Positions 18,837 through 64,000 of a DNA stretch of 64,000 nucleotides are shown here, in pieces. The translations under genes and the position numbers were made by a program. The DNA comes from an uncultured Anaeroplasmataceae bacterium. GTDB taxonomy: Bacteria; Bacillota_I; Bacilli_A; Acholeplasmatales; Anaeroplasmataceae. Each line of letters begins with the position of its first letter. Position 1 is the stretch's first letter. Under the pieces are notes generated by a model. The model ran no database searches, was not told where the DNA came from, and saw only the letters and a list, made by a program, of their open reading frames with translations. The stretch covers positions 151,875 through 215,874 of the forward strand of contig CANRFF010000002.1 of NCBI GenBank assembly GCA_947629825.1, given 5' to 3'.

Positions 18837-21236
18837 ATGGGATATAATCATACGAAAATAGAGAGAAAATGGCAGGAATATTGGGAAAAAAATCATACGT
18901 TTGAGACGGACGTTTGGGATTTTTCCAAGCCGAAATTTTATGTTTTGGATATGTTTCCGTATCCGTCCGGACAAGGACTTCATGTGGGACATCCGGAAGG
19001 ATATACGGCAACGGATATTGTCAGCCGGAAAAAGAGAATGGAAGGGTACAATGTATTACATCCGATGGGGTGGGACGCTTTCGGTTTGCCGGCCGAACAG
19101 TTTGCGATTAAAACCGGACATCATCCGGAAGAATTTACGAAACAGAATATCCGGAATTTTACCAGACAATTGAAAATGTTGGGATTTTCTTTTGATTGGT
19201 CGAAAGAAATTTCCACCTGCGATCCGTCTTATTATCATTGGACGCAATGGATATTCAAACAACTTTATCAAGACGGATTGGCCAAAAGAATCGAAATGCC
19301 AGTCAACTGGTGTGAGGAACTGGGAACGGTTTTGGCCAATGACGAAGTGATTGACGGAAAAAGCGAAAGAGGCGGGTATCCCGTTGTTCGTAAAAATATG
19401 AAACAGTGGGTCTTGGATATTCCGAAATATGCGGAAGCCCTCCTAGAAGGATTGGATGATCTGGACTGGCCGGAATCGACCAAAGAAATGCAACGGAATT
19501 GGATCGGAAAATCGGTCGGAGCGCAAATTGTTTTCCAAGTGGCCGATTCCGAAGAAACCTTTGAAGTTTTCACCACTCGTTGCGATACGTTATTCGGGGC
19601 TACATATTGTGTTTTGGCACCGGAACATCCGTTGGTATCGAAAATTACTTCCGCTGAACAAAAAGCCCAAGTGGAAGCCTACTTGCAATTATGCAAGTCC
19701 AAAAGCGATCTGGAACGAACCACCGGCAAAGAAAAAACGGGCGTGTTTGTCGGATCTTATGCGATCAATCCGGTAAATCAAAAACAAATTCCGATCTGGA
19801 TTTCCGATTATGTACTGTCTTCTTACGGGACGGGTGCCATTATGGCAGTTCCGGCTCACGATGAAAGAGATTATGAATTTGCCAAAAAGTTCGGTTTGGA
19901 TATCATTCCCGTTTTGGAAGGCGGAAATATCGAAAAAGAAGCGTATGTTCAGGATGGAATTCATATCAATTCCGGCTTTTTAAACGGATTGGATAAAGAT
20001 TCGGCCATTGAAAAAATGATTGCGTGGTTGGAAGAACACCACATCGGAAAGAAAAAAATTTCTTATCGGTTGCGGGAATGGATTTTCGCTCGGCAAAGAT
20101 ATTGGGGAGAACCGATTCCGATCGTTCATTTTGCCGATCATGATGAAGTATTGAAGGATGAAGAATTACCGCTGATTTTACCGGAGTTGGACGACTATAA
20201 ACCGAAAGTCAACGGCACGGCTCCTTTGGAAAATGCCAAAGACTGGGTCAAAGTCGTCCGTAACGGCGAAGTCGGATATCGGGAAACGTCTACGATGCCC
20301 GGTTCCGCAGCGTCCAGTTGGTATTTTTTGAGATACATCGATCCGCACAACGAAAAAGTTTTTGCCGATCCACAGTTGTTGAAACACTGGCTTCCGGTGG
20401 ATTTATATGTTGGTGGTTCGGAGCATGTTGTGGGTCATTTGTTGTATTCGAGATTCTGGAATCATTATCTGTATGATAAAGGGTTGGTGCCGGTTCGGGA
20501 GCCATTTAAAAAATTATTTCATCAGGGAATGATTTTGGGGGAAAACAACGAAAAAATGTCCAAATCGAGAGGAAATGTCATCAATCCCGACGATGTGGTC
20601 ACCGCTTACGGAGCGGATACGTTACGGCTATATGAGATGTTTATGGGACCGCTGGAAGCGTCGCTTCCTTGGAGCAGTACCGGATTGGAAGGCGCCCGTA
20701 AATTTTTGGATCGGGTCTGGAGATTTTATACCGAAGAAGAATATGTTTTGAAATTAACCGATGAAAACGATCGAAAGTTGGATAAAATTTATCATCAGAC
20801 GGTCAAAAAGGTTTCTACGGATATGGATCATCTGAATATGAATACGGCGATTGCCCAATTGATGACTTTTTTGAATGAAGCCTATAAGGCGCCAACGGTC
20901 TACCGTCCGTATGCGGAGGGATTTATTCAAATGCTTTCCGTCATTTGTCCTCATCTCGGAGAAGAAATCTGGCAAATTTTGGGACATCGGGAAACGATCG
21001 CATACAGTCCGTGGCCGAAATACGATGAACAGATGCTTATGAGCGAGACCAGTTCTTTGGTGGTTCAGGTCAACGGAAAATTGAGAGATCGGATTGAAGT
21101 TTCCGCCGATGCTTCGGAAGAGGAGATCAAAGCGCAGGCGTTGAACAGCGAAAAAGTTCGGATGTTCACAAGCGGTCATGAAATTGTCAAAATCATTGTG
21201 GTTCCGAAAAGGATTGTGAATATCGTCGTCAAATAA
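18837..21236 (+). CDS. leuS: Leucyl-tRNA synthetase
   Basis: LeuRS charges tRNA-Leu and edits mischarged product. All landmarks are present in the 799 residues: HVGH (residues 49-52) for HIGH, the editing-domain threonine motif [21 protein letters not shown] with the editing aspartate, EKMSKSRGN (about 571), the anticodon-binding helical domain, and the C-terminal domain with [11 protein letters not shown]. This is the functional LeuRS of the cell and serves as the reference for the degenerate paralogue at 57711. Start ATG after AAGGAG. Confidence 0.98.
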
Positions 21237-49029: not shown

Positions 49030-50130
49030 ATGGCAAATGTCAGTTTGAAAAATATCAATAAAGTTTACGCCAACGGAGTACAGGCGGTTTACGATTTTAA
49101 TTTGGAAATCCGGGATAAAGAATTTATTGTTTTGGTAGGACCTTCCGGTTGCGGAAAATCCACGACCTTGAGAATGATTGCCGGTTTGGAAGAAATCACA
49201 TCGGGAGATTTATATATCGACGGAGAAAGAATGAATGAAGTACCGGCCAAAGATCGGGGAATCGCCATGGTATTTCAATCGTATGCCCTTTATCCGCAAA
49301 TGACGGTTTATGACAATATGGCTTTCGGATTGAAGTTGAGAAAATTATCCAAAATGGAAATCCGTCAGCGAATCGAAAATGTGGCAAAAATTCTTGGGTT
49401 GGAAAGTTTGTTGAACCGAAAACCGAAAGCTTTATCCGGCGGACAACGTCAAAGAGTGGCGTTGGGTCGGGCAATTGTTCGGGACGCAAAAGTATTTTTA
49501 TTCGATGAACCTCTGTCCAATCTGGATGCGAAGTTGAGAGTACAGATGCGGACGGAAATTGCGAGAATTCATAAGAATATCGGAGCCACATCGGTCTATG
49601 TGACCCACGATCAGATCGAAGCGATGACTATGGCTTCCCGAATTGTCGTGATGAAAGACGGGTATATTCAGCAGATCGGAACTCCCGAAGAAATTTATGA
49701 TCATCCGGCCAATGTTTTCGTCGGAAGTTTTATCGGGACGCCGTCAATGGGCTTTTTAAAAGGAACGGTGCTTGATGACGGAACTTTCGAAACGGAACAT
49801 CACGAATATCGTTTCAAAATCGCAGAGGATCATTTTGAAATTTTAAAAGAAAAGGATGCTTTAAATCGTCCGCTTCTTATGGGAATCCGTCCGGAAAATA
49901 TTCATTATTGCCCGTCATCGGAAGATTATACTTTGGAATCGTCGATTTCGTTTTGCGAAATGTTGGGACATCAAACGAACGTATATTTCAAAGTAGAAGA
50001 AACTCAGTTGGCTTGTGTTCTGGATACCCGGATCGCTTTTGCGGAAAATCAACAAGTCCAATGGCTGTTCGATTTGAAACGGCTCCATTATTTCGATCTG
50101 GAAACCGAAAAAAATCTCATCGAGTCGTAA
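49030..50130 (+). CDS. Dedicated MsmX/UgpC-type ABC transporter ATPase
   Basis: The 366-residue ATPase starts at the ATG behind CAGGAGG (the GGAGGTAAG site overlaps the kinase stop). Walker [10 protein letters not shown] (about 37-45), Q-loop [23 protein letters not shown], signature [18 protein letters not shown], Walker [17 protein letters not shown] and the H-loop [12 protein letters not shown] are complete. The C-terminal TOBE-type domain (about 240-366) is typical of MsmX, which energises several sugar importers. As last gene of the locus it should power the permeases at 28908 and 29837. A second copy lies at 56211. Confidence 0.95.
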
Positions 50131-56210: not shown

Positions 56211-57317
56211 ATGGCAACTTTAAAATTGGTAAATGTGAATAAGATTTATCCGAATGGTGTTCAAGCCGTTTTCGATTTCAACTTGGACATTAAAGACAAA
56301 GAATTTATTGTCTTCGTAGGACCTTCCGGATGTGGAAAGTCGACGACGCTACGGATGATTGCCGGATTGGAAGACATTTCCAGCGGAGAATTCTATATTG
56401 ACGACGTATTTATGAACAACGTCAATCCGAAAGATCGTGGAATTGCGATGGTATTCCAGTCTTATGCACTATATCCGCATATGACCATCTACAACAATAT
56501 GGCATTCGGCTTGCAATTACGTCATATGCCGAGAGAAGAAATCGACAAGAGAGTCGCAGAGGCAGCGAAAATTCTGGGATTGGAAAATTTATTAGATCGG
56601 TATCCTCGTCAGTTGTCCGGTGGACAGAATCAACGTGTGGCTCTGGGTCGGGCGATTGTTCGGGACGCCAAAGTATTCCTGATGGACGAACCTCTGTCCA
56701 ATCTGGATGCGAAATTACGTGTAACGATGCGTGGAGAATTGACCAAACTTCATAGAAGATTGGGTTCGACGACGATTTATGTAACTCACGATCAGATTGA
56801 AGCGATGACCATGGCTTCGAGAATCGTTGTTATGAGAGACGGAAGAATTCAACAAGTGGGAACTCCTCAGGAGATTTACGAACATCCGTCGAACGTGTTT
56901 GTCGGTGGATTCATCGGTACTCCGCCAATGAATTTCATTACGGGAACCGTAGATAAAACGGGACAATTCGTTTCGGAAGACGGGTCTCAGAAAGTTCAGA
57001 TTCCTGCCGGGAAACTGAAAGTTCTTTCCGATAAAAAATATGTCGGGAAACCGGTCATTTTGGGAATCCGTCCGGAAGATATTCACGATGATCCGGTAGT
57101 GCTTGAAACTTATGCCGATTCCACGGTTACCGTGAAAGTGGATTTGGCGGAATTGTTGGGTTCCGACACGAACATTTACGCAACCATCGGAAATGATTCC
57201 ATTATCGCATCCGTACCTGCCAGAGATGACTTACAAAAAGGTCATGAAATCAAGTTGGCTTTCGATATGAATCATTGTCACGTATTCGACAAAGATACGG
57301 AAGAAGCCGTTCTTTAA
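56211..57317 (+). CDS. msmX: MsmX/UgpC-type multipurpose sugar-import ATPase
   Basis: The 368-residue ATPase closely resembles the copy at 49030. Walker [11 protein letters not shown]-loop [23 protein letters not shown], signature [18 protein letters not shown], Walker [18 protein letters not shown]-loop [14 protein letters not shown] and the C-terminal OB/TOBE domain are complete. It stands alone with its own promoter and terminator and no permease genes, which fits a shared housekeeping ATPase serving several ABC importers, as known for MsmX in Bacillus and MsmK in streptococci. Confidence 0.95.
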
Positions 57318-57432: not shown

Positions 57433-57666
57433 ATGGCAGTATTTGATAAGGTGAAAGAAATTATTGTAAAAGAATTGAAAGTAGAGCCTGAAAAAGTAGT
57501 CGAAACTGCTTCTTTAAAGGATGATTTAGGCGCAGATAGTTTAGATGCAGTGGAAATTATTATGGATATTGAAGATGAATTCGGCGTACAGATTGAAGAC
57601 GATCAGGCCGAATCGATTAAAACGGTAAAAGATTTGGTAGAATACATCGAATCATTCAAAAAATAA
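57433..57666 (+). CDS. acpP: Acyl carrier protein
   Basis: ACP carries growing fatty acids on a phosphopantetheine arm. The 77-residue acidic protein has the attachment site [19 protein letters not shown], with Ser36 modified by AcpS (gene at 1419). Start ATG behind AAGGAGG. No fatty-acid synthesis genes lie beside it. It is followed by a small hairpin and the LeuRS-like gene. Confidence 0.98.
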
Positions 57667-57668
57667 TG

Positions 57669-57692
57669 AGCTGCATTGCAGCTTTTTATTTT
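57669..57692 (+). terminator. Attenuating terminator between acpP and the LeuRS-like gene
   Basis: AGCTGC-ATT-GCAGCT stem-loop followed by TTTTATTTT. The downstream gene has a strong ribosome site but no visible promoter, so partial read-through is likely. Confidence 0.7.
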
Positions 57693-57710
57693 GCGGAAGG
57701 AGGTGAAAAA

Positions 57711-59720
57711 GTGAAACAAAATGACGAATACTGGATCGAACGTTGGCAGAAAAGCAAAAGTTTTCAAGTGGAAAAAGATCAAATCAAACCCAAATCGTAT
57801 TTGTTTGCCAGTTTTCCCAAAACGAACATTTACGGTTTTCAAGACGGGCAAATTCGTTCTCTGTTGATGGCCGATGCGATTTCCCGATATGAACGAATGG
57901 CCGGGTATAATGTCTTGTTCCCGGTAGGCTATGATTCACTGGGATTGACTTCTTTTATGGAAAGCAAAAAACACAGCAATTCCATCAATGACGACATTCC
58001 CCATCTTTTTCGCGACCAGATGTTGCGACTCGGAATCAGTATCGACGAACAAAAAGAAATCGACTTGCGTCACGAAGCGTATTTGGCTTCGTTACAGTTG
58101 GCATTTATCGAACTTTACGAAAAAGGATATATCAAGTACGGACAGATGGTGGTTTGTCAGGAACCCAAAACGAAAAAGATTTTCGACCCGTATTTCGATC
58201 GGGACTCTTTCGTCAAAACGGAAATGAATGTTTTTTATCTGGATATCGAATCCGTTGTTCCTCAGGTTTTGGAAAAAATCGAACATTTGCCGGTATCCAA
58301 AACAATGAAAGACGATTTGAAAAAAATTTTGGAACCGCAGTACAGTCTGTGGATTGATTTTTATGTAACCAACGGAAGTAAAATGAAAATCGAGTTGAAA
58401 GAACCGGAATTTATGGGAGGCATTTCTTTTATTTGCATTCATCCCGATTTCGTGGACTTTTCTCTTTATACGGAATATGACGAATACGAAGCGATTGAAA
58501 GATATTTATCGGAAGAAAATTCCGTTGAATTCGGAGTTTTCAGCGGAAATTATGCGATCAATCCGTTGACCGGCAAAAAAATACCGATTTTTATCAGCGT
58601 TCAATTCGCAGAAGGTATTTATGTGGGAAATCCGGCGATTTCCAAAAAAGATGCAACCCTCGCAAAACAGGAAGGGTTGCCGATGATTTCCGTTGTGAAA
58701 AACGGAATCTTTGTCGAAAGCGACTTTTTAAACGGACATCCGTTGGAAGAAGGCAAAGATTTGCTCACCGCCTCTTTTTTAGACGCCGAAATTGCCGTAA
58801 AACATTCTTATTATCTGAAAAATCGAATTTTGGTTTCCTCTTTGGATACTTTCGGAGCCATTTTGCCTTTTTTACAGGAATCGGAAGATCAGTTATTTCC
58901 GTTAAAAAATTATTTGCCCATCACTTTTTCCTCGAAATTCCGACCGGTGTTAGACGATATTGATATCCCGGGAACGTTGATCGGCGGAAGTATCAATCAT
59001 ATTTTTTCTTCGGGGATGTCCTCGATTTTATCACTGCTTTATGATGAACTCGGAGCCGGAGTTTCTCTTTTTTCCGAAGAAGCGATGCAGGCTTTTTCCG
59101 ATTGGAACGGAATGGATTTGATTGCGCTTTATCCCAACGAGACGTTCGAACATCTGTTTTTCCCGCTTTGTGTTCTGGCCATCATCGAAAAAGAAAGTCA
59201 AACGGTATGTCCGTCTTTGTTTCACAAAATCGAATTGATTCAGCCGACATTGGATATTCATATGCTTCCGATGAATCGCAAAAACAACAATATCTTTGAA
59301 CTGGATTCGTATTTGAAAGAATATTCGGGAGATGTTTTGCGCCTCTGTTTTTTGAATTCGGATCCGAATCAGGCATTGATTTTCGAAGAAAGTTCATTGG
59401 AACGATCCTCGCAGTTCATCAAAGGAATCGAAGAATATTTTCAAAAGCCGTTTGCGTCGGAAAATCTGATCTTGGAAGAACGACTTTCCGATTTTTTCAA
59501 AAAAGAAACGCTGTTGTTGGAAGATAAAAATCTCAAAGAATATCTTTGGCAGTTGTTGAAGTTCTATAAAAATATCTTATGGAAAGAATCCTGTACGAAA
59601 AAACAGGCGCTTTTGATATTGAAACTTTGGTATCCGATCCTTCCTTTTACGACGGAAGACATATATGCCGACATTTTCAAAGGAAAAACGTTACTTTGCG
59701 ATGACGGTTGGGGACGGTAA
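57711..59720 (+). CDS. Degenerate leucyl-tRNA synthetase paralogue (class I tRNA ligase-like)
   Basis: The GTG start follows AAGGAGGTG. The 669 residues align with LeuRS (18837) along the synthetase core, without gaps from FASFP through SRYERMAGYNVLFPVGYDSLGL. Both histidines of HIGH are replaced (QDGQ, residues 44-47), and KMSKS is replaced by PMNRK while the following EYSGDVLRL still aligns. The editing-domain frame is kept (YAINPLTGKKIPIFI) but the threonine motif TTRxDT is lost; one Asp (ISKKD) matches the editing aspartate. The protein stops where the C-terminal tRNA-binding domain would start. It cannot be an ordinary LeuRS. The frame is intact, so it is probably a maintained protein with another role. 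The last 30 bases overlap the convergent radical SAM gene. Confidence 0.85.
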   Translation: MKQNDEYWIERWQKSKSFQVEKDQIKPKSYLFASFPKTNIYGFQDGQIRSLLMADAISRYERMAGYNVLFPVGYDSLGLTSFMESKKHSNSINDDIPHLFRDQMLRLGISIDEQKEIDLRHEAYLASLQLAFIELYEKGYIKYGQMVVCQEPKTKKIFDPYFDRDSFVKTEMNVFYLDIESVVPQVLEKIEHLPVSKTMKDDLKKILEPQYSLWIDFYVTNGSKMKIELKEPEFMGGISFICIHPDFVDFSLYTEYDEYEAIERYLSEENSVEFGVFSGNYAINPLTGKKIPIFISVQFAEGIYVGNPAISKKDATLAKQEGLPMISVVKNGIFVESDFLNGHPLEEGKDLLTASFLDAEIAVKHSYYLKNRILVSSLDTFGAILPFLQESEDQLFPLKNYLPITFSSKFRPVLDDIDIPGTLIGGSINHIFSSGMSSILSLLYDELGAGVSLFSEEAMQAFSDWNGMDLIALYPNETFEHLFFPLCVLAIIEKESQTVCPSLFHKIELIQPTLDIHMLPMNRKNNNIFELDSYLKEYSGDVLRLCFLNSDPNQALIFEESSLERSSQFIKGIEEYFQKPFASENLILEERLSDFFKKETLLLEDKNLKEYLWQLLKFYKNILWKESCTKKQALLILKLWYPILPFTTEDIYADIFKGKTLLCDDGWGR

Positions 59721-60647
59721 ATAATGGTCTCCCTGATGTAAATCGTTTTTTCTCAGATATTTGTCGATTTCGTTTCTGACCACCAATTTTTTTCTTGTCC
59801 ACAACGGAGCGACCAGCATTTTTTGCGTGGCGTCCGCAGAGAAACGATGAATAATGACGGAAGGCTTTAATCTTGCGATTTGCAGAGCCGTGATTTCCGC
59901 ATATTCTTCCAAAGACAAAAGCGGAAAAGGGTGTTGTCGGTATTCTTCGTATAAACGGGTATTTTTTAAAAGTAACAAAGAATGAATCTTGATGCCGTCG
60001 ACGTCCAATTGATTGACAAAGTCGATGGTTTCAAGCATTTCTTTTTTTGTTTCCCCCGGAAGTCCGTTGATGATATGAACGACGACTTCGATATTTCTTT
60101 TTTTCAGGTTCCGTACCGCATCGATCATTTCCCGATTGGTTGACGCCCGATGAATTCTTTTGGCCGTTTCGGGATTGGAACTCTGTAAACCGAGTTCGAC
60201 AATGATGGGACGGATTTGATTGAGTTGTCCCAAATAATCGTAAATTTCTTCGGTAAAACAATCGGGACGAGTGGCAATCGCAAAGGCCACACAGTTTTGC
60301 GGATCGATTCTGAGAATCCGCTCATAGATTTCTTTGAGTTTTTCTAGGGGAGCGTAAGTGTTGGAATTGGCTTGTAAATAAGGAATGAACCGACAATTCG
60401 GCCATTTGTTCCAAAGAATGGTTTTGATTTTTTCAAATTGCAGTTCCAACGAATCCTGCGGATTTCCGGCAGTATCCCCGCTTCCCGATGGGGAACAGTA
60501 CGTACATCCGCCGAAGCCTTTCGTTCCGTCTTTATTGGGACAGGAAAAACCGGCATTTAAAGAAATTTTCGCTACTTTATGGTGATATTTTTCCTGATAA
60601 TAGGTTGTTAAGTCGTTGTATCTTTTTTGATTTGTATTCGCTATCAT
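59691..60647 (-). CDS. Radical SAM protein, YhcC/TIGR01212 family
   Basis: The 318-residue protein has the YhcC-type cluster motif CPNKDGTKGFGGCTYC (Cys36, Cys48 and Cys51), spaced CX11CX2C rather than CX3CX2C. YLQANSNTYAP, AIATRPDCF, VELGLQSSNPETAKRIHR, HIINGLPGETKKEML and GIKIHSLLLLKNTRLYEEY follow, all features of this Elp3-like family. Its substrate is not known to me; the group is close to tRNA-modifying enzymes. Start ATG behind AAGGTGAC. It converges on the LeuRS-like gene with a 30-base overlap. Confidence 0.92.
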   Translation of the reverse strand: MIANTNQKRYNDLTTYYQEKYHHKVAKISLNAGFSCPNKDGTKGFGGCTYCSPSGSGDTAGNPQDSLELQFEKIKTILWNKWPNCRFIPYLQANSNTYAPLEKLKEIYERILRIDPQNCVAFAIATRPDCFTEEIYDYLGQLNQIRPIIVELGLQSSNPETAKRIHRASTNREMIDAVRNLKKRNIEVVVHIINGLPGETKKEMLETIDFVNQLDVDGIKIHSLLLLKNTRLYEEYRQHPFPLLSLEEYAEITALQIARLKPSVIIHRFSADATQKMLVAPLWTRKKLVVRNEIDKYLRKNDLHQGDHYLPSPTVIAK

Positions 60648-60739: not shown

Positions 60740-61522
60740 ATGGGGAATAGAATCAAAGATTGTCTCTGTCATCCAAAGTGGATCGGTAAATACTTCAAAG
60801 ACCGGATATGGTCGGTATTTTTGATGCTGGTTTTATTTTTCGGCTGTTATGCCGCCGTTTCGGCCGCAAGAGCCTATACGACCGCCCCTTTTACGTCCGA
60901 ATCTGCCTCTTCCTTGGTTTCGACAATTTATCGGAATGCCGAAAACGATATTTATTATCAAGCAGAAGACCATGAGCTTTACGGAACATCGACGGTTTAT
61001 CAAGGTCAGTCTTTCAGTATGTATTTTTTATCCGAAGAAGTGAATTATCAGTCTGAAATCACGATTGTGTTTGATCGGGACAGTGCGGCTGTTTATGAAT
61101 ATAATTTGAAAATCGGTCAAGTTTTTTATCGGGATTTGCGAATATCGTCTTTTTCGCTTGCGAATGTGAAAAAATATCAGTCGGCCGATGTTTACGAATT
61201 CGGCAAATTGGCCATGGCAGTGTTGGAAAGTTCTTTTTTGTATTACCAGTCGTCGGCCTTTTTATACGATTTGGGAGTTACATTGGCGTATTATTTCATG
61301 ATCGTTTTGGTTTTATGTTTTTTCAGCGTTTATATCAATCCGGGAATCGAATTGAAGATTCGCATTAAATTATGTTTTTACGATGCATTGGTGTATTTTG
61401 CGGTTTGTATGTTTTCGGTATTGTTTGGAATTTCCTGGCTTTCGTATGTGGCATTTATCGTGCCGGTCATTTACAATTTGATTACATTCAAACATATCAT
61501 TAAAGTAGTTATTCGGAAATAG
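60740..61522 (+). CDS. DUF1189-like membrane protein
   Basis: The 260 residues start with a short cytoplasmic part (HPKWIGKYFKDRIW), one membrane segment (about 26-45), an outer region of about 125 residues, and three or four membrane segments at the C-terminal end (about 172-250). This layout (an N-terminal helix near a KYFKDR-type start, an outer domain, then grouped helices) resembles DUF1189 proteins, but the assignment is weak. It lies 12 bases before polC and probably shares its transcript. Confidence 0.6.
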   Translation: MGNRIKDCLCHPKWIGKYFKDRIWSVFLMLVLFFGCYAAVSAARAYTTAPFTSESASSLVSTIYRNAENDIYYQAEDHELYGTSTVYQGQSFSMYFLSEEVNYQSEITIVFDRDSAAVYEYNLKIGQVFYRDLRISSFSLANVKKYQSADVYEFGKLAMAVLESSFLYYQSSAFLYDLGVTLAYYFMIVLVLCFFSVYINPGIELKIRIKLCFYDALVYFAVCMFSVLFGISWLSYVAFIVPVIYNLITFKHIIKVVIRK

Positions 61523-61534
61523 GGAGGGAATCTG

Positions 61535-64000
61535 ATGAAATACGACGATTTTTTTAAAACGTTATCTTTTTTACCTGCGGACGCTATGGTAAAAATTTTT
61601 CCCAAAATCACCGAACAGAAAAAACTATATGTTCATTTGGAGACGGATCGGATTTTAAAATATGACCAGTTTTGTCAACTATCCGAAGAAACGGTACGGT
61701 TTTTTAAACAGGCACTTCCGGCTTTTCAAGTGAAGATTTGTCCGCACTATCTTTGTAAGGACATCTCTTCCGATATTTACCAAGAGTATCTTTTGCATAT
61801 TTTGGAAAAGTTGAGTCAGACGGACGGGCGATTTCAGGCTTTGGACGCCGAACATTGCCAATATGACGGAAACCATATTCTTTTTTCCGTGGCCTGCGAT
61901 GCGATGGGAATGGACGACTTCGTTCGACCGATTTGCGATCGTTTTTCGGAATACGGATTCGAAGTTTCCATCGGCTTTTTGAAAGACGAACGGAAAAGTA
62001 TTCAAAAAGAATTGGAAGATTTACAACATGAAATGGATTTGACGTTGGAAAAACAGCGAAAAGAAGCGGCTGCCGTTCAGCGAATCAATCAGAATATGCA
62101 AAAAGAGCGGAAAAAAAGTTATAATTCGACACCGGAAATCAAAAGTATCATCAAGTCGATTCCGAGTTCGCTTAACGAATTATCCACTTACACCAATACT
62201 CAGGGAATTCCGAATTTTTGGATTGAGGCATCTGTCTTTGGAATTGAAATCAAAAGTTTCACCAAAACCAAATCGTTTTTGGCAACGATGAAAGTTACGG
62301 ATGATACCGATTCCATTTTGGTGAAAAAATGGCTTCGTACCGAAAACGAAAAGGCATTATTCGAAAACGACATTACCGAGGGAAGTCTTTTGAAAATCGT
62401 CGGGAAAGCCGAATTCGACTCGTATGCCAAACAAGTCGTTTTAATGGCAACGACCGTGGAATATTTGGGAAAGAAAAAAGAAGAAGTCGTCGAAGATACG
62501 GCTTCGGAAAAAAGAGTGGAATTGCACTGCCATACGAAAATGAGTAATTTGGACGGAATTACCGCTGCGGAAGATTATATTCGTACGGCGTCCGAATGGG
62601 GATGGAAAGCACTGGCGGTGACCGATCACAACGGAGTCTATGCGATTCCGGATATTGCCCATGAAGTGAGTCATCATCCGGGATTCAAACCGATTTACGG
62701 TGTGGAATTGAATTATGTCAATGACGAACGATATTTTATCACTTTCGATCAAAGAGACATTCCTTTGAAAGATGCCACTTACGTGGTTTTTGATATTGAA
62801 ACGACCGGTCTTTCGCAAAGTTATGACGAAATTATCGAAATTGCCGCTTGTAAAGTATATCAGGGAGGAATTGTCGATACTTTCGAAGTGTTTGTTCATC
62901 CGAAAATGGAAATTCCGAAGAAGATTTCGGAGTTGACTACCATTACCAACGAAATGGTGGAAGATGCCCTTCCGATCGAGCAGATTCTTCCGCAATTCAT
63001 GGAATTTTGTGCGGGAAGTATTTTGGTGGCGCACAACGCAACATTCGATGTGGGCATGATTTATCGGGATGTGGAAAGATATCATTTGAATTATGCACCC
63101 CTTCCGGTCATTGATACGCTGAATTTGTTTCGGGTCGGCTATCATGACGAAGTCAAACAGTTCAATTTGAAAGTGATGAGCAAATACTTCAAAGTGAAAC
63201 AAGAACAACATCACCGTGCCATTGACGATACTCGGGTGACGGCACTTTGTTTCTTGTCGATGTTGAATGATTTGTTTCAAAAAGGAATCTATAATTACCG
63301 GGATATCAATACTTTGATTGATCCGAAGGTTCATTGGAAATATGTCATTCCGAACCATTTGAATCTTCTTGCGAAAAATCCGATCGGATATAAAAATATG
63401 TATAAAATTTTATCGGACGCCTTGACCGAACATTTTTACGGAAGCGCCAGAGCGTTGAAATCCGTTATCGATGCTCATCGTGAGGGAATTCTTATCGGAA
63501 GCGGGTGTGTCAACGGAAATGTATTCGAGTTGGCACTCAACCGAAGTCTTTCGGAACTGGAAGAAGAAATCCGATATTACGATTATATCGAAGTCCAACC
63601 GCCGTCTGCTTATCGTCAGTTGTTTTTGGATATGCCGAACGGAGAAAATCGGGTACGGGAAATCATTCAAAAGATTATTTCCACCGCCCGAAAACAAAAC
63701 AAAATCGTCGTGGCTACGTCCGATTGTCATTATTTACGACCGCAACTGAAACCATACAGAGATATTATGATTTCATCTCCGCAGATCGGTGGAGGAACTC
63801 ATCCTTTGGAAAGATATGAAGAAGCCCCGGATATGCATCTTCGTACCACCGATGAGATGTTGAGCGAATTTTCGTTTTTGGATAAAGATCTGGCTTATGA
63901 AATTGTCGTTACCAATACCAATAAAATTGCCGATCAGATTGAAACTTTCGACGCATTCAAAAAAGAAATGTTCGCTCCGAGAGACGACGAATTTAAAGAT
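61535..64000 (+). CDS. polC: DNA polymerase III subunit alpha, PolC type, 3' truncated by window edge
   Basis: PolC is the replicative polymerase of Firmicutes. The ATG follows AGGGAGGG, and 822 residues are visible of about 1430 expected. Visible are the N-terminal domain (about 1-200), the OB domain (about 215-320), the first part of the PHP domain (VELHCHTKMSNLDG from about 327; AVTDHNGVYAIP), and the 3'-5' exonuclease inserted into it with DEDD motifs VFDIETTGL (about 417), VAHNATFDVG and HRAIDDTRVT. Then PHP resumes (VVATSDCHYL). The exonuclease inside the PHP domain is what separates PolC from DnaE. The polymerase palm lies outside the window. Confidence 0.97.
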   Translation, partial: MKYDDFFKTLSFLPADAMVKIFPKITEQKKLYVHLETDRILKYDQFCQLSEETVRFFKQALPAFQVKICPHYLCKDISSDIYQEYLLHILEKLSQTDGRFQALDAEHCQYDGNHILFSVACDAMGMDDFVRPICDRFSEYGFEVSIGFLKDERKSIQKELEDLQHEMDLTLEKQRKEAAAVQRINQNMQKERKKSYNSTPEIKSIIKSIPSSLNELSTYTNTQGIPNFWIEASVFGIEIKSFTKTKSFLATMKVTDDTDSILVKKWLRTENEKALFENDITEGSLLKIVGKAEFDSYAKQVVLMATTVEYLGKKKEEVVEDTASEKRVELHCHTKMSNLDGITAAEDYIRTASEWGWKALAVTDHNGVYAIPDIAHEVSHHPGFKPIYGVELNYVNDERYFITFDQRDIPLKDATYVVFDIETTGLSQSYDEIIEIAACKVYQGGIVDTFEVFVHPKMEIPKKISELTTITNEMVEDALPIEQILPQFMEFCAGSILVAHNATFDVGMIYRDVERYHLNYAPLPVIDTLNLFRVGYHDEVKQFNLKVMSKYFKVKQEQHHRAIDDTRVTALCFLSMLNDLFQKGIYNYRDINTLIDPKVHWKYVIPNHLNLLAKNPIGYKNMYKILSDALTEHFYGSARALKSVIDAHREGILIGSGCVNGNVFELALNRSLSELEEEIRYYDYIEVQPPSAYRQLFLDMPNGENRVREIIQKIISTARKQNKIVVATSDCHYLRPQLKPYRDIMISSPQIGGGTHPLERYEEAPDMHLRTTDEMLSEFSFLDKDLAYEIVVTNTNKIADQIETFDAFKKEMFAPRDDEFKD

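Follow-up and report, generated by a model that had tools for sequence, protein, structure and literature searches.

A protein resembling leucyl-tRNA synthetase (LeuRS), hereafter PLRS, is encoded directly downstream of acpP in a gut bacterium of the family Anaeroplasmataceae whose genome carries a functional LeuRS at another position. The locus raises the question of what this protein is, where it comes from and what keeps it in the genome. In the following, the window is the whole stretch of DNA analysed (64,000 nucleotides).

The PLRS frame, its lost motifs and its conservation

The features of the gene, and the functional LeuRS with which it was compared, are the following.

57711-59720, plus strand: PLRS, a predicted catalytically dead LeuRS-like protein of 669 residues in the ancestral leuS slot (open frame, LeuRS matches, orthologues)
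57697-57705, plus strand: Shine-Dalgarno site of PLRS, AAGGAGGTG (similar sites precede most orthologues)
57840-57851, plus strand: HIGH position of PLRS, QDGQ (HVGH in the window's LeuRS; alignment)
58395-58412, plus strand: position of the editing motif TTRxDT in PLRS, LKEPEF (TTRCDT in the window's LeuRS; alignment)
59268-59282, plus strand: KMSKS position of PLRS, PMNRK (alignment)
18837-21236, plus strand: functional LeuRS of the genome, 799 residues, with HVGH and KMSKS, assigned a foreign origin (TIGR00396, tree, AU test)

The PLRS frame is uninterrupted from the GTG start at 57711 to the stop codon ending at 59720, and the GTG lies six bases past AAGGAGGTG, the Shine-Dalgarno site claimed in the preliminary description of the locus. 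There is an in-frame ATG upstream, at 57666; the comparison of orthologues nevertheless places the conserved start at 57711. PLRS matches the LeuRS Pfam models PF00133 and PF13603, and a PDB sequence search matched LeuRS at 1.7e-20. Its score against TIGR00396 (125 bits) is far under the model cut-off (548), and thus too low for a working LeuRS; the window's own LeuRS reaches 1073 bits. The alignment to the window's LeuRS (18837-21236), used as the reference for the motif positions, confirmed what had been noticed from the letters: a LeuRS relative with an intact frame, substituted motifs (QDGQ, PMNRK, LKEPEF) and a gap-free Rossmann stretch. It also confirmed that the C-terminal tRNA-binding domain is absent, the frame ending at the domain border, as it does in all the aligned orthologues shown. 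Judged by HIGH, KMSKS, TTRxDT and the C-terminal domain, PLRS is predicted not to be a functional leucyl-tRNA synthetase.

Orthologues, searched in 60 relatives first and then in 55 genomes of the Anaeroplasmataceae (order Acholeplasmatales), were found in 51 of the 55, the four genomes without PLRS being drafts. The frame is intact in all but one of the 51 (50/51), the exception being G143, with a single internal stop (TAA). PLRS was not found in the G016 genome, whose acpP contig stops about 100 bases past acpP; mobile-element-like sequence follows acpP there (L221:8036-8141) and has no resemblance to PLRS. None of the 30 PLRS orthologues aligned has an intact HIGH (HxGH), KMSKS, TTRxDT or HxxxH motif, the loss of HIGH and KMSKS being common to all of them, and the residues at the editing-motif position vary. 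For PLRS, dN/dS was 0.04-0.09 between the closest genomes (two pairs) and about 0.06-0.14 between genomes farther apart; Ddl, MurF, PolC and the other neighbouring genes gave values in the same range when compared between the same genomes. This bears out the earlier proposal that selection keeps the gene. Taken together, the family-wide orthologues, the low dN/dS of the closest pairs, the absence of intact motifs and the confidently predicted fold (see below) identify PLRS as a conserved synthetase pseudoenzyme under purifying selection, and not as a decaying gene. The preliminary description had regarded relatives with intact HIGH and KMSKS motifs in the same gene as a sign of decay: such motifs do exist in the same slot of sister families, but decay does not follow from them, because the dead state is uniform within the family and purifying selection is strong.

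The ancestral leuS slot and the active LeuRS

The neighbours of PLRS in the window are as follows.

57433-57666, plus strand: acpP, acyl carrier protein, directly upstream of PLRS (PF00550, 9.9e-17)
59691-60647, minus strand: radical SAM protein, convergent with PLRS, ancestral order (PF04055, PF16199)
60740-61522, plus strand: putative membrane protein of 260 residues, ancestral order (open frame, gene order)
61535-64000, plus strand: start of polC, which runs past the window end, ancestral order (tblastn)

The gene order in the Anaeroplasmataceae is acpP, PLRS, the radical SAM gene (opposite strand), the gene for the 260-residue protein, polC and a gene for a TM protein; a few loci show local losses or insertions, and the genes farther upstream vary between genera. 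The polC gene was located with the 1487-residue protein of relatives (tblastn, 64% identity across 821 residues). The 260-residue protein (60740-61522) gave no Pfam match; its gene has stayed in this position, with the radical SAM gene on one side and polC on the other, in the family and in several genomes of the sister families. The same window contains two MsmK/MalK-type ABC ATPase genes (49030-50121 and 56211-57317), 58% identical to each other.

Two sister families of the order, f3 and f5, have a full-length leuS behind acpP, immediately adjacent to it in most genomes; this leuS carries HVGH and, in nearly all cases, KMSKS, and is the sole LeuRS found in those families. Downstream of it come the radical SAM gene (opposite strand), the gene for the 260-residue protein, polC and the TM protein gene. 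This gene order, common to the window, the family and the sister families, therefore places PLRS in the native leuS slot. The tree separates PLRS and the leuS of f3 and f5 from all other LeuRS (support 99.6); the PLRS branches are long, which makes their exact position uncertain, and gene order is the independent and stronger evidence. By both, PLRS is assigned as the orthologue of the Acholeplasmatales leuS.

The active LeuRS of the family sits away from the acpP slot and groups in the tree with the LeuRS of other Bacilli families, to which it is 64-71% identical; its identity to the native leuS within its order is 57%. A tree constrained to join it with the native leuS is worse by 219 log-likelihood units (AU p = 1.4e-11). 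By these comparisons, the dead PLRS is the native leuS, handed down vertically, and the active LeuRS of the window is a foreign copy. A second LeuRS replacement, in G018 and G033, was seen in one tree, was absent from smaller trees and was rejected.

PLRS outlasted the replacement across the family, and a similar gene occupies this slot in two other families (incomplete draft genomes: two of f2, one of f4). In f2, a protein of 703 or 615 residues without the motifs is encoded behind acpP; in f4 (G038; L177:5313-6866), the gene behind acpP encodes a LeuRS relative of 517 residues in which the HIGH region is deleted, and which matches the editing-domain and anticodon-domain models and not the catalytic model. 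According to the tree, the donor of the active LeuRS of f4 differs from that of f1 and f2, so that PLRS has been retained alongside LeuRS enzymes of different descent. The rpoB tree joins f1 with f2 (93) and f3 with f5 (99), the position of f4 being unresolved. Catalysis may have been lost once, before these families split, or more than once.

Predicted fold and candidate roles

The AlphaFold model of PLRS (pLDDT 83.2, pTM 0.81), a prediction that the preliminary description had recommended, is confidently LeuRS-like: the best Foldseek matches are all LeuRS (E about 1e-36, TM 0.6-0.66), and the model indicates that the overall LeuRS fold and domain order are kept. Most of the conserved positions of PLRS are structural residues that LeuRS has as well; those specific to PLRS are for the most part hydrophobic. 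The two top conserved windows, FVESDFLNG and NPLTGKKIP, lie within or at the border of CP1, the former editing domain. Relative to the active LeuRS, the drop in conservation is smaller in CP1 than elsewhere (p = 0.006); the excess of CP1 (0.42) over the N-terminal Rossmann half (0.40) is slight, with domain limits set by eye. CP1 is acidic, K and R making up 6% of it versus 11% in the active LeuRS, a composition that argues against nucleic acid binding there. An invariant aspartate of PLRS, D314, aligns with the conserved aspartate of the editing site, and residual ligand binding in CP1 is possible. Amino acid sensing through the canonical pockets was considered and set aside as unlikely: MFPYPSG, HxxxH and the editing threonines are lost, though D314 is invariant. 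Scanning the window for Rfam families and tRNA genes gave no matches.

Being dead and yet selected in nearly every relative, PLRS must serve something besides tRNA loading. The reading that we favour, and hold to be reasonably probable, is that PLRS, a native synthetase since displaced, has been retained as a binding or regulatory protein with no catalytic activity, most likely acting through protein contacts of CP1. Charging of tRNA would have passed to a LeuRS gene acquired from a different lineage of Bacilli, the native leuS staying in its ancestral slot behind acpP; the native protein would then have lost its C-terminal tRNA domain together with editing and the binding of ATP and leucine, while keeping the overall fold; and it would now work by binding or regulation, protein contacts centred on CP1 being the most likely means. 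Of this account, the gene and its conservation, the lost motifs, the selection, the common gene order and the separate origin of the active LeuRS come directly from the data, whereas it is inferred that PLRS binds rather than catalyses something new, that CP1 is its working part and that its partner is a protein; a protein is favoured over an RNA partner by the acidic character of CP1, poor in K and R, and by the loss of the C-terminal tRNA domain. A bolder proposal, conceivable but doubtful, is that the ancestral LeuRS of the Acholeplasmatales already had an important non-catalytic second job that the foreign LeuRS could not inherit, the function then being split between two proteins. If so, the family would be a case in which nature itself separated the two functions, and the LeuRS at work today in Acholeplasma and its relatives would be expected to retain the second job. 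Hidden non-catalytic roles of housekeeping synthetases become directly testable here, and a second role, if ancestral, would be separable from charging.

Other roles agree less well with these data. PLRS could be a tRNA-Leu-binding regulator, or a partner subunit of the active LeuRS, which would fit the retained helical domain, ending at a conserved W, and the tRNA-Leu binding of known LeuRS paralogues (PMC9437257). This is rather unlikely, since all lack the C-terminal tRNA domain, PLRS is the more acidic of the two proteins (mean pI 4.99 versus 5.70 for LeuRS), and the different donors of the active LeuRS in f1/f2 and f4 make a co-evolved LeuRS partner unnecessary. The conserved PLRS-specific positions R49, D379 and N526/N527 could point to new catalysis on a remodelled pocket, but the positions conserved family-wide are mostly LeuRS-type structural residues or hydrophobic swaps, and the sequence shows no new grouping of polar residues; this reading is improbable.

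The preliminary description had taken the linkage to acpP as a pointer to the acyl carrier protein or to lipid metabolism, and the gap between the two genes bears on this suggestion.

57669-57692, plus strand: terminator-like hairpin and T-run in the acpP/PLRS gap (AGCTGC-ATT-GCAGCT, then the T-run)

A comparable hairpin is present between acpP and PLRS in nearly every orthologous locus, with stem sequences that differ between genera, and comparable hairpins precede the functional leuS in most sister-family loci. Because only about ten bases remain between the hairpin and the Shine-Dalgarno site and start of PLRS, the position of the hairpin makes read-through from acpP the probable route to PLRS expression. 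The linkage is conserved in part: acpP lies directly before PLRS in about 30 loci, despite the genus-variable genes farther upstream, but in G018 and G022 PLRS is preceded by a HAD-like gene, with no adjoining acpP. This adjacency is the argument for an action of PLRS on lipids or on the acyl carrier protein encoded next to it, a role that is very unlikely. The same gene pair exists with a functional leuS in the sister families, the terminator-like hairpin splits acpP from PLRS, and the catalytic motifs are lost; furthermore, ketoacyl synthase (PF00109) was not detected in the window's genome (96% complete, acpP present), nor in five of the ten relatives searched (G008, G028, G036, G038, G040), being present in the other five (G012, G015, G018, G046, G049). 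Given the ancestral acpP-leuS pair, the hairpin, the loci of G018 and G022 and the missing ketoacyl synthase, the acpP linkage is inherited from acpP-leuS and is no evidence for a lipid role. A caution follows: conserved linkage misleads on function here, the acpP neighbourhood being older than the pseudoenzyme.

The term paralogue, used at first for PLRS and taken to mean a copy that arose by duplication from the LeuRS of the window, had to be abandoned in view of the AU test, the gene order and the grouping of PLRS with the native leuS. Duplication inside the lineage, with PLRS and the active LeuRS as sister copies and no foreign gene, would account for two bacterial-type LeuRS co-present in the family, but it is highly improbable given the AU test and the greater identity of the active LeuRS to other Bacilli than to its own order's native leuS. 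Slow decay of a pseudogene, suggested by the loss of every catalytic motif and by rapid divergence between genera (24-38% identity), is ruled out by the dN/dS values and the intact frames, the retained ribosome-binding sites and the confidently predicted fold also standing against it.

Comparison with known systems

With canonical bacterial LeuRS (TIGR00396), PLRS shares the fold, the domain order and the gene slot of the sister families; it differs in the missing HIGH, KMSKS, TTRxDT and C-terminal domain and in a score below the model cut-off. Amino acid:[carrier protein] ligases have a class II-like core, an intact active site and a carrier protein as substrate, whereas PLRS is of class I and has lost its active site. 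HisZ, the regulatory subunit of HisG in histidine synthesis, has a class II HisRS fold; it is a synthetase fold with no adenylation activity, as is predicted for PLRS, the regulatory use being that of HisZ, but it is of class II with a known partner. SLIMP, an insect mitochondrial SerRS-like protein and proposed partner of mitochondrial SerRS, is likewise a dead synthetase relative under selection, and works by binding; in contrast to PLRS, it is of class II, eukaryotic and born by duplication. HisZ and SLIMP provide precedent for dead synthetases as regulators. The usual view of synthetase pseudoenzymes is that a duplicate was recruited into a new role; gene order and tree show the reverse here, the native enzyme being the dead one and the newcomer the active one. 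No earlier description of PLRS was found in the open-access literature.

The closest parallels are archaeal. LeuRS-I of the Sulfolobaceae binds tRNA-Leu and makes leucyl-adenylate (Weitzel et al. 2020; review PMC9437257), and its C-terminal domain is kept, divergent and acidic (PMC9437257). It resembles PLRS as a second LeuRS-like protein beside a working LeuRS, with a disrupted editing domain, no aminoacylation (predicted for PLRS) and retention by selection; it differs in that PLRS lacks HIGH, KMSKS, the leucine-pocket motifs and the C-terminal domain, so that adenylate formation would not be expected of PLRS. LeuRS2 of the Halobacteria, which retains low charging activity (Fang et al. 2014; review PMC9437257), is, like PLRS, an extra LeuRS across a whole lineage, but unlike it PLRS has no catalytic motif. 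Both archaeal proteins have been proposed as tRNA-Leu-binding regulators or LeuRS partners. Divergent LeuRS forms of Halobacteria are tied to gene transfer (PMC3436685); in the Anaeroplasmataceae, by contrast, it is the dead copy that is native and the active copy that is foreign.
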